Shown here in pieces: positions 14,002-56,027 of a stretch of 64,000 nucleotides of DNA. The stretch covers positions 2,334,020 through 2,398,019 of the forward strand of contig NZ_CM001436.1 in the NCBI RefSeq assembly GCF_000243255.1, read 5' to 3'. Below the pieces are notes generated by a model, which had not been told where the DNA came from, searched no databases, and worked only from the letters and a program-made list of their open reading frames with translations. The stretch comes from Methanoplanus limicola DSM 2279 (GTDB lineage: Archaea > Halobacteriota > Methanomicrobia > Methanomicrobiales > Methanomicrobiaceae). Made by a program: the position numbers and the translations under genes. Within the stretch, counting starts at the first letter, position 1. Each line of letters opens with the position of its first letter.

Positions 14002-14202
14002 GACAATTCAGTTTGTACGGAACAGAATACTATTTGGTTACGGACAAAACCATTTGTACGTAACAGATCGGGGTATCATTACGGACAAATGAAGTTGTAC
14101 GTATTCTGTGACTGACAAAACCATTTGTACGTAACAGATCGGGGTTTCATTACGGACAAATGAAGTTGTACGGATTTTTATGACTGACAAAACTATTTGT
14201 AC
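14002..14202. repeat. Six helically phased 17-bp GACAAA-N5-TTGTAC sites
   Basis: Sites start at 14002, 14043, 14084, 14114, 14155 and 14186: spacings of 41, 41, 30, 41 and 31 bp, all near whole helical turns. Each is an imperfect palindrome of the form GACAAANNNNTTTGTAC, and two intervening blocks (GTAACAGATCGGGGT) are duplicated. They lie between two minus-strand genes, upstream of Rpn copy E and downstream of the acyltransferase. A 29-bp word at 13952-13980 is shared with 10288-10316. A multi-site operator or iteron-like array; not CRISPR, since units and spacers repeat together. Confidence 0.65.
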
Positions 14203-26267: not shown

Positions 26268-26942
26268 TCAGTCATTACCATCTCCGGCAATCTCCCAGTG
26301 ACCGCCTTTTCTTGGCCCGGACCGTTTTATCCGCCCGGAAATTTTCAACTTTTTTATCTGCCATTCTATTCCTTTGGATGATATGCCCGTCTTTTGTGCC
26401 ATCTCGTCCATGGTGACAAACGGGTTTTCTGAAATCAGAGCGATAATTTTTTCGCGGGTTTCTTCAGTTTTATCCCTGGTACTTTCGGTTTCTTCCCTAG
26501 TACTTTCGGTTTTATCCCTGGTAATTTCGGTTTTATCCCTAGTAATTTCAGTTTTATCCCTAGTACTTTCAGTTTTATCCCTGGTAATTTCAGTTTTATT
26601 CCTGGTAATTTCAGTTTTATCCGAAGGTTTTTCCTCTGCTTTGACCAGATGGATAACTGTCCGGAAACCATCAGTTACGGTAAACTCCGGTTCAGGCAGA
26701 CCGGCTTCACTGCAACGCCTTATCATATCACCAGTTCCTGTACCCATCCGCTCAATGTACTTAGTAAGGTACATTGGTTCTGCAAGGAGTGGATTTCCCG
26801 GAACTGAGCCATGTGCAACCCGAAGTTTTTCAAGGGTAAGGGAAGGCGGAAGTGCTCCGGGATTCCAGACTTCAAGCCTGTCGGAGATGTATTTTAAAAA
26901 AATCAGACCTAAAACGACATGCCTGTACTCCGAAGCATCCAT
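26268..26942 (-). pseudogene. Chimera of duplicated hsdM 5' end and AlbA_2-type C-terminus, with heptad repeats
   Basis: The duplicated hsdM start codon is present, but codon 16 (Trp in HsdM) is TGA at 26970-26972. Translation can only restart at [20 protein letters not shown]. After SDR the sequence switches to the C-terminal half of an AlbA_2 regulator: [37 protein letters not shown] and GLPEPEF. Then come about nine seven-residue repeats of the DKTEITR type and a winged helix ([20 protein letters not shown]). Origin: a duplication of the hsdM promoter fused into an AlbA_2 gene. The 224-residue product may be made from the copied promoter as a DNA-binding protein; the ATPase/AlbA domain is lost. 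Confidence 0.65.
26455..26625. repeat. 21-bp tandem repeat array encoding DKTEITR heptads
   Basis: Eight to nine near-perfect 21-bp units (TTTTATCCCTGGTAATTTCG type on the plus strand) within the chimeric gene. Units vary at two positions (I/S, K/E), so the array mixes old and new units. Confidence 0.8.
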
Positions 26943-34643: not shown

Positions 34644-35414
34644 TCACTGCCATCTGTGCCATTCATCAACCGCAAGCTCTCTGTATCTATCTTTGTCAAT
34701 CCTGCCTTTTTTCAGCAGTTTATTGGCTATAGCTTCCCTTTGGGCATATATTTCTTCATATAGGTCAGACCTCTCTGCATATTTTGGGAAGGTATTGTAG
34801 GAGAGCATGAGCATTCCGGCATCAGAATATTCGTTGTAAGCTTTTCTGACAGCACGGATATTCTTCAGATAGCCTTTAAAGTCCTCATCAGCGCCAGGCC
34901 TGTGAATACTCTTCCTGTACATGTCCCTGCCCGATTCTGTCAGGACGATATGCCCGCCGCTGTAATGATCGTCTGAATCCGGGAGGGTGTATTTCCATGC
35001 ACCTTTCAGATATTCTGGGTTTATCACCGCATCTTCAAGCTGAACAGAATATTCACCCATCACATGCGGATGGAATTCAAACTCCGTGTAGCCGGAGACT
35101 TCCTTGAGCTTTAGGACAAAAAATATCTTCTCCAGGAGGAGCAGGGAGATCTTCTTTTTATTTGCCCCCAAAACGAGCAGAACTGAATTCTCAAGCGCAA
35201 ATTTCAGGTCACCGCTCTTTTCATCACCGGAAGGATCATTATTAATCTCTCTGCTGCCTGTATTGTCAGTCATATCCTCACCGGAAGGATCATTATTAAT
35301 CTCTCTGCTGCCTGTATTGTCAGTCATATCCTCACCGGAGGTATTGTTATTGATATCCGTATTGTCAGTCATGTCCTCGTCAGCCATATTATCATTTATT
35401 TCATCATAATTCAT
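34644..35414 (-). CDS. Hypothetical protein with 18-residue N-terminal repeats, paralogue of the 31663 gene
   Basis: 256 residues from the ATG at 35414, which has a GAGG nine bases upstream (an upstream ATG at 35438 is less likely). The first about 60 residues are an acidic Asn/Asp-rich tail with 18-residue repeats (GEDMTDNTGSREINNDPS) encoded by a 54-bp DNA repeat, probably disordered. The rest parallels the 31663 protein: KKKISLLLLEKIFFVLKL, GGHIVLTESGRDMYRK and YNTFPKYAERSDLYEEIYAQ. Function unknown. Followed on the same strand by the ribosomal pair, preceded by a Panacea-like gene. Confidence 0.7.
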   Translation of the reverse strand: MNYDEINDNMADEDMTDNTDINNNTSGEDMTDNTGSREINNDPSGEDMTDNTGSREINNDPSGDEKSGDLKFALENSVLLVLGANKKKISLLLLEKIFFVLKLKEVSGYTEFEFHPHVMGEYSVQLEDAVINPEYLKGAWKYTLPDSDDHYSGGHIVLTESGRDMYRKSIHRPGADEDFKGYLKNIRAVRKAYNEYSDAGMLMLSYNTFPKYAERSDLYEEIYAQREAIANKLLKKGRIDKDRYRELAVDEWHRWQ

Positions 35415-35595
35415 ATTATTCTTCCTCTTTTCCCTCAAAAAAATCAGTTTTCACCGGTTTACGGTGCACAGACAGGGCAGGCTTTCCGGATTTTTCCGGG
35501 CAGGAAAACGCCTGAAAATCTCAGATTAACTTTCCGGTCAGAAAAAAAATACGCCTGAATGGCGCGAAAAAGAGAACTCACAGATTTTCCGGCTC

Positions 35596-36573
35596 TCAGA
35601 TTTGCATACTGCCGTCCGAAAGTGCATCTACCTTGTGTTTTTTAATATGCAGGGAGTTACTGCACGACTTCATCAGTTCAATGAAGGCCTTATCTGATGT
35701 TTTTTGAGGAGATTTTCCGGAGAACTTATCCCCGTCAAGCAGGAAATCACGGATATTCTGTATCTTTACACTGTAATCGTCATATGCACATTTTACAAGA
35801 CTGCTGTATTGAGTAGAACCGCATTCATTTGTAGCTATGCAATAGTTTTCGCAGAACTGCCGCCCTAACAGATCGGCAAAAATGTGATAGTCCTTAACAA
35901 GCAGCCTGAAGGCCTCATCCCAGACAAGATAGGTTTCATAAAAGAGGTCACCAAAAGATTCCGGAAATTTTTCCCTGATCTCACCCAATTTCCAGTTTAC
36001 AAGAACCGGGTCAGGTCTGCCCATACGGGAGACTTCCCTTGAGAAGAGATTGATACTCCGTGTAAACTCCTGCTCCTCACTGATATGTGAAAAACCAAAG
36101 CAGCTGAGTTTTCCCGCATCGTCCGGATCAAGATAAAACTTCTTCAGCGGAATTGTTCCACTTTCGTCAGCCCCGGAGCAGAGTTTAAATCTGCTGACAT
36201 AGCCTGAGAGTTCCCCGTTCTCCATATCCATGGCCTTTCTCAATACCTTAAGCAGGAGGTAATACTCATATATGCTGAATTTACTGAGATCGGGCTTTTT
36301 TTTAAGAAGAGAAGTGACATCCAGAGCATCCTTTCCGGCACTCTCAGACTCAGACAGATCTACGGAAAAATACTCCTCACTTCTGTCATAGGCATATGCA
36401 GACACAGGGCCGTATGGCATCCGGAGATATGTGTCATCCAGAATTGTTGTGCCAATCTGGTTATAAGAGATGAGGTCAACGATAAAAGGGATATATATTA
36501 TTTTATTTGACCCTGCATCAGGGTATCTCTCCAAAGCGTAAAATATCGCATTCAAAGACTTCGCGCAGGACAT
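35596..36573 (-). CDS. Panacea/DUF4065-like protein, 325 aa
   Basis: The N-terminal about 75 residues resemble the Panacea (DUF4065, SocA-like) fold: LNAIFYALERYPDAG, IYIPFIVDLISYNQIG and the hallmark DDTYLRMPYGPVSAYAYD. Panacea domains act as antitoxins or adaptors in many TA loci. The C-terminal about 150 residues (FSREVSRMGRPDPVLVNWKL, CIATNECGSTQYSSLV) are not recognised and may be the effector. Monocistronic; upstream lies the repeat operator array of the divergent AbiE-like module. Confidence 0.6.
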   Translation of the reverse strand: MSCAKSLNAIFYALERYPDAGSNKIIYIPFIVDLISYNQIGTTILDDTYLRMPYGPVSAYAYDRSEEYFSVDLSESESAGKDALDVTSLLKKKPDLSKFSIYEYYLLLKVLRKAMDMENGELSGYVSRFKLCSGADESGTIPLKKFYLDPDDAGKLSCFGFSHISEEQEFTRSINLFSREVSRMGRPDPVLVNWKLGEIREKFPESFGDLFYETYLVWDEAFRLLVKDYHIFADLLGRQFCENYCIATNECGSTQYSSLVKCAYDDYSVKIQNIRDFLLDGDKFSGKSPQKTSDKAFIELMKSCSNSLHIKKHKVDALSDGSMQI

Positions 36574-36737
36574 AGGATATCAATAATATATCCCAATAAC
36601 TTAAAAAAACTTTCCTTTGCATATCAGCATGCTTCTTATTTCGGATTTATATAAATACCAACCCTATTTTCACACCTATACACCGCATCTGTCACCATCA
36701 TGCCCAGACAATTATTAGTCTCAGAATATAAATATCA

Positions 36738-36933
36738 GTGGTAACAATAAATAGTTATCACAATTTAGTATAACATATCAGTGATAACATTAAATAGTTA
36801 TCACAATTTAGTATAACATATCAGTGATAACATTAAATAGTTATCACAGTTTAGTATAACATATCAGTGATAACATTAAATAGTTATCACAATTTAGTAT
36901 AACATATCAGTGATAACATTAAATAGTTATCAC
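36738..36933 (+). promoter_or_regulatory. Five-operator array: 24-bp inverted repeats at exact 43-bp period
   Basis: GTGATAAC-N8-GTTATCAC occurs at 36738 (one mismatch), 36781, 36824, 36867 and 36910. The 19-bp spacer AATTTAGTATAACATATCA is identical apart from one base, so whole 43-bp units are in tandem. The last inverted repeat ends 19 bp before the ATG at 36953. AbiE antitoxins are known to repress by binding inverted repeats in their promoter, so this is very likely the autoregulatory region. Not a CRISPR array: the spacers do not vary. Confidence 0.8.
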
Positions 36934-36952
36934 AAAACAAGGATACATTAAC

Positions 36953-38047
36953 ATGGAACAGATGAACCTGAAAGATACTGAAAAATATATCCGTTCTTAT
37001 CTTAGATTAAAAGATGGAGATAATCCGAAATACACAACGCCGGGCATTTCAGAAACAACATCAGAATCAGAGGAAAAGACCGACACCAAACCATATGAAC
37101 CTGAAATAATCAGTGACTATTTCCAGCCGGATTTAATAATCAAAGATAGAAATACAATCTATTACATAGAAATAAAAAACAGGGCCTCACTGGATGCAAT
37201 AGCACACCTTAACTTCTACTGCTATCTGGCAGCAAAAAAGAACAAAAGTAACACAGACAGGATAAAAATTGTTCCGGTTCTTGCTTCAAAAACAATTGAC
37301 ACACAAAACAGTAAACTTGCAGAAGAAGCAGGAATAACAACAATAAAACTCCCCTGGGACTTAGTTATAAAAAATCAGGATGTAAAATTCCCTGCAACAT
37401 CCAGAGTTAAAATTACATCTGATAAATCATGGAAAGTCGTCTCCCGCCTCCTAAAAGGGCAATCATCAATAAGGCAGATCTCAAAAAAGGAGGGAGTATC
37501 ATATGGCTGGGCACATAAAACAATAAATTCGCTGATCGATCAAAATATTGCAGAAAAAGAAGATTTTTCCACCAGAATAACAGACACAAAGAAGATCCTC
37601 AACGGAATAGCATGGGAGAGGCCAATGAAGAATCTCCTTCACAAAGAAATATTCGTGGAATTTGATAATTCCTTTCAGGCAGCAGTATCAATAACCCAAA
37701 ATCTTGATTCAGCCGGAATACCCCATGCCTTTACAGGAAGAACTGCCGGAAGTCTTTATACCGGATATGCATTCCGTCATGATACAGCAGATATATACCT
37801 AAACAAAAATGATATAAAAACATTCACTGATAATTTTGAATATTCATATTTTACGGATGAAAACTCAGGAAATCCTACTGTAAAATTATGTATCTACATT
37901 CCTGACAGAGATGTATTCAAAGAAACCAAAATAATAGAATCTGTCAGAATAGTATCACCCGCAGTTGCCCTTCTGGATCTTGCAGGAATGGGCTTTGGTG
38001 AGCGTGACCATACAACAGAGCTTTTAAAGATTTATGCCGGAATATAA
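36953..38047 (+). CDS. AbiEi-like antitoxin/regulator with PD-(D/E)XK-like N-terminal domain
   Basis: 364 residues in three parts. Residues about 40-150 look like a PD-(D/E)XK domain (PD59-60 in FQPDLIIKD, E73 and K75 in YYIEIKNR, then HLNFYCYLAAKKN). Residues about 155-200 form a helix-turn-helix (IRQISKKEGVSYGWAHKTIN). The C-terminal about 150 residues (FDNSFQAAVSITQNLDSAGI, TGRTAGSLYTGY, RIVSPAVALLDLAG) resemble the C-terminal domain of AbiEi-type antitoxins. It overlaps the next gene by 14 bases and is preceded by the five-operator array. The nuclease-like extension is unusual for AbiEi. Confidence 0.7.
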   Translation: MEQMNLKDTEKYIRSYLRLKDGDNPKYTTPGISETTSESEEKTDTKPYEPEIISDYFQPDLIIKDRNTIYYIEIKNRASLDAIAHLNFYCYLAAKKNKSNTDRIKIVPVLASKTIDTQNSKLAEEAGITTIKLPWDLVIKNQDVKFPATSRVKITSDKSWKVVSRLLKGQSSIRQISKKEGVSYGWAHKTINSLIDQNIAEKEDFSTRITDTKKILNGIAWERPMKNLLHKEIFVEFDNSFQAAVSITQNLDSAGIPHAFTGRTAGSLYTGYAFRHDTADIYLNKNDIKTFTDNFEYSYFTDENSGNPTVKLCIYIPDRDVFKETKIIESVRIVSPAVALLDLAGMGFGERDHTTELLKIYAGI

Positions 38048-38789
38048 AATAAATCCCGGAATTATCAGAGAATCCCTGAATGAATTAAAGATTATTCAGT
38101 CCTGGATTAAAAATATAGGTATTAATCCGGAAAATCCACAGATAATTCTTATCGGCGGATGGGCTGTTGATGCATACAATTCATGGTATGGTTCTGTAGA
38201 TATCGATATCATAACTACAAGCGACATACGAAACGATCTTAAATACTACCTGAGAAAAAAACATGGTTATCTTGAGAGCAGAAGAGAACTTCAGATGCCT
38301 TCAGGAATTGAGAAAAATACAGATTACGGAAAAATAATAATTGATTTTATTCCAAAAGGACTAAATCAGCCATTTGAAGGTCAGGACATCCCTTTTCACT
38401 TTTCAATAACTGAAGGAAATGTCACATTAAAATCTATCCGCAATACTTGCAGTATGTATATACCTACACGGACAATTCTGATATTTTTAAAATTAAAGGC
38501 AGCGTGGGACAGAAACTTCAGGGTGGAGAATAATTCAAGCAATGATCCAGACTGGGACAGAAGTAAACTCATAAAGGATTATGCAGATATTCTGGCATTA
38601 CTTGACCCTAAATCCAGTGGTTACGAAACGAATCTGGATAAACTGGGTGATTTATTTGATAAATATCCTTTTCTGCTCCAGACTCTTTTTAAAATACAGT
38701 ATAGCCGTGAAGCTCTGGAAAGATACGGAAGACTTGAAAAACCTGAAATAAAGCACATATTTGATCATCTGGATAATTATTTCAGATAA
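38034..38789 (+). CDS. AbiEii-like nucleotidyltransferase toxin
   Basis: 251 residues. Nucleotidyltransferase signature IILIGGWAVDAYNSWYGSVD with IDI (GG...D-x-D, about 40-60), a second-strand acidic IIDFIPKG and a helical C-terminal part (TRTILIFLKLKAAWDRN, KDYADILALLDP). AbiEii/MenT-type toxins transfer nucleotides to tRNA or other acceptors and stop growth; target unknown here. Coupled to the upstream regulator by a 14-base overlap. Followed by a copy of the dispersed hairpin repeat. Confidence 0.75.
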   Translation: MPEYKINPGIIRESLNELKIIQSWIKNIGINPENPQIILIGGWAVDAYNSWYGSVDIDIITTSDIRNDLKYYLRKKHGYLESRRELQMPSGIEKNTDYGKIIIDFIPKGLNQPFEGQDIPFHFSITEGNVTLKSIRNTCSMYIPTRTILIFLKLKAAWDRNFRVENNSSNDPDWDRSKLIKDYADILALLDPKSSGYETNLDKLGDLFDKYPFLLQTLFKIQYSREALERYGRLEKPEIKHIFDHLDNYFR

Positions 38790-55860: not shown

Positions 55861-56027
55861 CGGAATAGTCAGCGAAGTCAGATAATTAATGATACATATT
55901 CTGTTTTCGATGACCTCAAGTTATTTTGTCGGAATAGTCAGCGAAGTCAGATAATTAATGATACATATCCTGTTTTCGATGACCTCAAGTTATTTTGTCG
56001 GAATAGTCAGCGAAGTCAGATAATTAA
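55861..56027. repeat. 69-bp tandem repeat, 2.4 units
   Basis: Units start at 55861, 55930 and 55999 (CGGAATAGTCAGCGAAGTCA), identical apart from one or two bases. Bounded by the 14-bp direct repeat ATGAGACGTTGATT. A frame through it is only the repeat translated and is not a gene. Confidence 0.9.

Follow-up and report, generated by a model that had tools for sequence, protein, structure and literature searches.

What kind of system is formed when a nuclease-like regulator, a nucleotidyltransferase and a five-fold repeated promoter element occur together on an archaeal chromosome? This question is raised by a locus of Methanoplanus limicola DSM 2279 (NZ_CM001436.1), located in a window of 64,000 nucleotides, by which we mean the whole stretch of DNA analysed, in a 3.2-Mb genome assembled as a single contig. 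The sequence displays an overlapping gene pair, an operator conserved among relatives, a TATA-like box inside the operator unit and catalytic residues that are only patchily retained. We consider it probable that the pair is a chromosomal toxin-antitoxin-type operon of the AbiE/MenAT kind that represses itself by occluding its own TATA box. The upstream gene (36953..38047, + strand) encodes a three-domain regulator of 364 aa, a putative antitoxin and autorepressor, and the downstream gene (38034..38789, + strand) encodes an AbiEii/MenT-like nucleotidyltransferase (NTase) of 251 aa, the putative toxin. The two open reading frames share 14 bp (38034..38047, + strand), with the NTase ATG at −14 from the regulator end, in agreement with the first-pass annotation, and the overlap has this length in every one of the 51 relatives whose NTase is intact. 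As in type IV toxin-antitoxin systems, the putative antitoxin gene comes first in a bicistron, and repeats lie over the promoter.

The assignment of the second gene product draws on motifs, Pfam and fold. The window protein carries the NTase motif residues GG41-42, D56/D58, K153..R160 and K181-D-x-x-D185; among 20 aligned members, G41, G42, D56, D58, K153, K155 and R160 are invariant, and K181, D182 and D185 are retained in at least 90%. AbiEii motifs I/II (hGG...DhD), III (KLxA..R) and IV (+DxxD), as previously defined (PMC3985639), are present in the family, with A-W in place of the published aromatic in motif III. Pfam AbiEii matches 11 of the 20 members at E ≤ 0.1 (best E = 4e-5), the window NTase itself scoring 16.6 bits, below the cut-off of 22.5, and PADLOC models gave no match to the NTase in any of the 20. 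Foldseek searches with the AlphaFold model (pLDDT 91.8) returned MenT1 toxins as the top matches (8an5, E = 1.6e-5), with LnuA and CCA-adding enzymes among the next best. In line with the earlier description of a toxin-like NTase, these Pfam and Foldseek results support an AbiEii-like NTase.

The regulator begins with a NucS/EndoMS-like PD-(D/E)XK domain at residues 60-133 (37130..37351, + strand; D60, E73 and K75), followed by a winged helix-turn-helix (HTH) at approximately residues 157-209 (37421..37579, + strand) and by a C-terminal domain at approximately residues 210-364 (37580..38044, + strand). The reading frame contains the PD59-60 and E73-x-K75 residues on which a PD-(D/E)XK-like domain ahead of the HTH had been proposed, and the domain itself was recovered by Pfam NucS_C above its cut-off (E = 1.4e-5, 25.5 bits, cut-off 24) and by Foldseek, which matched the regulator model to EndoMS (5gkj) and NucS (2vld). 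Of the 124 positions of NucS_C, the match spans 35-106 and leaves out the leading acidic helix; the profile matches 11 of 26 regulator members at E ≤ 0.1. The regulator is the sole NucS_C match in its own genome, in which a separate NucS was not found. Within the HTH, W160, S172, R174, S183 and Y184 are invariant in 70 of 70 members, as are W221, R223, D277, R319, S335 and D342 elsewhere in the regulator; matches of the HTH region to CARF, Csa3 and TrmB proteins were set aside as generic winged-helix similarity. By sequence search, neither operon protein had a match among solved structures, a CTP synthase match being noise.

The first-pass annotation had also called the C-terminus AbiEi-like, a membership that sequence comparison does not establish. 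No AbiEi Pfam profile matched any of 26 regulator members at E ≤ 0.1, and 148 genomes sampled from the phylum yielded no AbiEi_2. In an hhalign comparison with archaeal AbiEi_1 proteins, the winged helix and the C-terminal domain aligned in the same order, without reaching significance (E = 0.008, probability 5%). The fold search points to an NTase-like fold: the best NTase-type Foldseek match of the whole regulator model was JHP933 (4o8s, probability 0.99, E = 3.7e-3), which most likely falls on the C-terminal domain, our candidate antitoxin domain. Since E-values of approximately 1e-3 to 1e-2 accompany the structural matches of the regulator, we regard them as support rather than proof. AbiEi was reported by Beck et al. 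to resemble adenylyltransferases in DALI (PMC7319586), so that a C-terminal fold of NTase type would agree with AbiEi but does not demonstrate membership.

Upstream of the regulator, the operator array (36733..36945, + strand) comprises five 41-bp units with a 43-bp period, starting at 36733, 36776, 36819, 36862 and 36905 (+ strand). Its core had been recognized as five GTGATAAC-N8-GTTATCAC sites at an exact 43-bp start-to-start period, and the coordinates confirm this (36738-36761, with one mismatch, GTGGTAAC; 36781-36804; 36824-36847; 36867-36890; 36910-36933); 0.21 such sites were expected in the window, and none of 100 shuffles gave five. The last site ends at 36933, 19 bp from the regulator ATG at 36953, as had been noted. 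Given that TATCA precedes each GTGATAAC and that relatives carry a fourth half-site (TGATA) downstream, the full conserved unit is larger than the 24-bp site first described. In the window, the unit reads TATCA-G-TG(A/G)TA...ATTAAATA...GTTATCAC, its N8 "spacer" between half-sites being a TATA-like box (ATTAAATA), and the fourth half-site reads GGATA in the last copy, whereas the four copies upstream have it in a damaged form, GTATAA in place of GTGATA; with this degenerate half-site the array is not a textbook copy of the operator. A genome-wide pattern search found the complete unit at this locus alone within its own genome. A sixth core match near 36578 (TATCAATAATA), 155 bp upstream of the array, was taken as chance.

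The array occupies the intergenic region between the regulator gene and a divergent gene (35596-36573, − strand) for a SocA/Panacea-domain protein, a domain common in antitoxins. The next gene (34644-35438, − strand) is a weak match (E = 1e-6) to PDC-M19A, a candidate defence family of PADLOC, and a perfect 54-bp tandem repeat lies within it at 35224-35339; other tandem repeats of the window lie at 26463-26622 (21-bp period), 14043-14202 (71 bp) and 55861-56027 (69 bp).

Comparison of the regions upstream of relatives defined the conserved unit as 41 bp, TATCA-N-TGATA-N12-TATCA-N8-TGATA. Conservation of the array with the genes was borne out in this homologue survey: the unit was found upstream of 69 of 70 distinct regulators, the exception (L040) having only approximately 30 bp of upstream sequence, and 136 kb of downstream control sequence gave one unit match. 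Three divergent Thermoplasmata/Euryarchaeota members outside the 70 carry it as well. One unit was counted at 11 loci (some of them cut by contig ends), two at 52, three at five, and five at the window locus alone, so that five is the highest number seen and two is the norm. Spacing between units is exactly 43 bp in 53 of 66 pairs. A sequence kept in this way across orders, and beyond one phylum, is rare for a transcription-factor site.

Columns 14-21 of the relatives' promoter-proximal units read TTTATATA/TTTAAATA at 1.0-1.9 bits, versus 0.2-1.0 bits in distal units, whereas the half-sites hold approximately 1.6-2.0 bits in proximal and distal units alike, except for the first T of the fourth. 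Likewise, TTTAWAWA with at most one mismatch occurs in 64 of 69 proximal units compared with 21 of 62 distal ones. These conserved columns correspond in the window to a predicted TATA box, ATTAAATA at 36918..36925 (+ strand), inside the promoter-proximal unit and centred approximately 31 bp upstream of the ATG. The regulator would therefore probably cover the TATA box when bound. Archaeal TATA boxes are centred approximately 26-27 bp upstream of the start site. From this general promoter geometry and the TATA position, with the relatives' start codon mostly 44, 47, 48 or 51 bp from the unit start, transcription in relatives is predicted to begin 0-8 nt ahead of the start codon, and the window transcript is predicted to be leaderless or nearly so. 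The AAGGA at 36939-36943 could instead serve as the Shine-Dalgarno sequence of a longer leader. In relatives, the GTGAT of the fourth half-site lies a few nucleotides before the ATG and is complementary to the 16S rRNA 3′ end, so that a transcript with a leader may have its ribosome-binding site within the operator sequence.

Approximately 70 distinct relatives were gathered, mostly from Methanomicrobiales, Methanosarcinales, ANME and Methanoperedens; those of the same order include Methanoculleus, Methanoregula, Methanospirillum and Methanocalculus. The counts above refer to the 70 distinct full-length regulators, that of the window included, left after duplicates and fragments were dropped. 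The regulator was found in 41 of 393 genomes sampled in the phylum, a few by weak HTH matches only. An alignment query of a wider genome collection yielded 58 loci, a single-protein scan of the contigs of the same collection gave no matches, and no relatives were found in viral contigs. The M. mazei pair MM2440-MM2441 was rejected as a relative, since its layout differs and MM2441 is a regulator of the ArsR type. Nearly all strong matches in an NTase search of the order adjoin a regulator, with one clear exception (G045:C41). At 68 loci where the downstream region could be judged, the NTase is intact in 51 and broken or missing in 17; these loci were gathered by regulator search, and assembly errors in metagenome bins may account for some of the frameshifts. 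This bias towards NTase decay next to an intact regulator is consistent with a toxin paired with its antitoxin; L027/L082 presents the opposite case, in which the regulator is frameshifted and the NTase open.

Two functions had been suggested for the array, that of a counting switch and that of a cleavage target for the fused nuclease. A counting or graded switch that requires exactly five sites would be in keeping with the exact 43-bp register across all copies and with the unusual cooperativity that multi-site operators can show, as in Rv2827c (PMC7319586). We nevertheless judge it very improbable, given the variation in unit number among loci described above and the character of the copies themselves. 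Neighbouring units in the window are 95-98% identical over 41 bp (80% for the last pair), also outside the half-sites, and relatives' neighbouring units have a median identity of 71% (52% outside the half-sites). Because the copies are near-identical beyond the half-sites and four share the same damaged fourth half-site, the array points to recent tandem duplication of the promoter-proximal unit, TATA box included, while the 43-bp register is old, being common to relatives with diverged units. With two units usual and the extra copies resembling recent tandem duplicates, counting becomes a superfluous explanation. The locus L015, with three units (spacing 85 and 43) and near-duplicated flanks, represents an independent operator expansion. 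In the survey of the order's genomes, the sequenced congener lacked the locus. As for cleavage, an active NucS-like nuclease that cuts the module's own array, as a self-limiting switch, or invading DNA resembling the array would accord with the D60, E73 and K75 retained in the window protein, with the Pfam and EndoMS matches, and with the D-(E/D)-K triad kept in 48 of 70 regulators. Against this, D, E or K is gone from the other 22 (K is replaced by V, T, I, S, N or R, and E by G, Q or K; approximately four are K to R only), and the tree shows at least 12 to 14 changes of the catalytic state, whereas all three residues, read at match coordinates, are kept by the bona fide NucS domains of the same phylum (30 of 30). 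The profile match, moreover, covers only the later part of NucS_C and lacks the leading acidic helix. Operators also remain intact in the triad-less members (16 with two units, five with one and one with three), which makes cleavage of the array unlikely and weakens its proposed role as a nuclease target. Given that the triad has been lost repeatedly, catalysis cannot be essential to the common function of the family; it may still operate in the window regulator, where the residues persist. We thus regard an active nuclease as quite unlikely, and a bifunctional repressor-nuclease that cuts its own operator or invading DNA upon a change of repressor state, with catalysis lost in some lineages, as more doubtful still.

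The operon might alternatively be a benign regulatory unit rather than a toxin-antitoxin pair, with an NTase that acts on tRNA or on some small molecule and a regulator that does no more than control it. The presence of LnuA and CCA-adding enzymes among the next-best fold matches would suit such a role, as would the failure of PADLOC to recognize the NTase; the best fold matches, however, are MenT1 toxins, and the AbiEii motif IV +DxxD (PMC3985639) is present. The patchy distribution of the regulator (27 of 232 genomes of the order) and the many loci at which the NTase has decayed while the regulator is intact are, furthermore, typical of addiction modules, and we consider the benign reading unlikely. 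For the self-repressing toxin-antitoxin-type operon that we favour, we infer binding, repression, toxicity and antitoxicity. The winged helix of the regulator would bind the TATCA half-sites, and occupancy of the proximal unit would mask the TATA box, together with the predicted start of transcription, thereby excluding TBP/TFB. A second unit 43 bp upstream, approximately four helical turns away and on the same face, would permit cooperative binding, and the five window units, presumably a recent tandem expansion of the usual operator with its TATA box, would be expected to tighten repression or to buffer it further. We presume that the NTase acts as the toxin and the regulator C-terminal domain as the antitoxin part, with the NucS-like domain most likely serving oligomerisation or DNA contacts and its catalysis being dispensable. 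Precedent exists in AbiEi and Rv2827c, which autorepress through repeats over the promoter (PMC7319586).

Collectively, our findings describe an AbiE-like module of archaea whose regulator has an architecture of its own and which current defence annotation misses, and a testable archaeal branch of the AbiE type in which toxin-antitoxin self-repression would take place at the TATA box; the module also offers a way to study what led a regulator to acquire a NucS-like domain. In the open-access literature, we found no description of an AbiE regulator with a NucS domain. Regulator residues 60-133 are homologous to the C-terminal PD-(D/E)XK domain of NucS/EndoMS; here, in contrast, the domain is joined to a winged helix, the rest of NucS is missing and the catalytic residues are not family-wide. 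JHP933, the AbiEii-like NTase of H. pylori, is the best NTase-type match to the regulator model, although profile comparison of the regulator C-terminus with the NTase of its own operon gave no significant similarity. Among solved structures, MenT1 of MenAT1 comes closest to the NTase; the partner of MenT1, MenA1, is an antitoxin of another kind. A NucS-like domain has not been reported for Rv2827c-Rv2826c or MenAT1, whose repeats differ in length and spacing from those described here. Rv2827c-Rv2826c of M. tuberculosis shares a multi-repeat operator over the promoter, with four repeats and negative cooperativity (PMC7319586). The S. agalactiae operator bound by AbiEi consists of two 23-bp repeats with positive cooperativity (PMC7319586), and with these two cases the statement that known AbiE operators have far fewer sites proves overstated. 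The S. agalactiae AbiEi/AbiEii pair is likewise a regulator-first bicistron with a DUF1814-type NTase second, a winged helix plus C-terminal domain in the regulator, and inverted repeats over the promoter. The archaeal regulator differs in adding the NucS-like domain before the winged helix and in a C-terminus not recognisably AbiEi, and its operator is TATCA-based, arranged around an archaeal TATA box, usually with eight half-sites in two 41-bp units. According to a 2026 survey, the AbiE systems of archaea form clusters separate from those of bacteria (PMC12988326), and the operon described here would work like known AbiE operators, yet with a distinct operator design.
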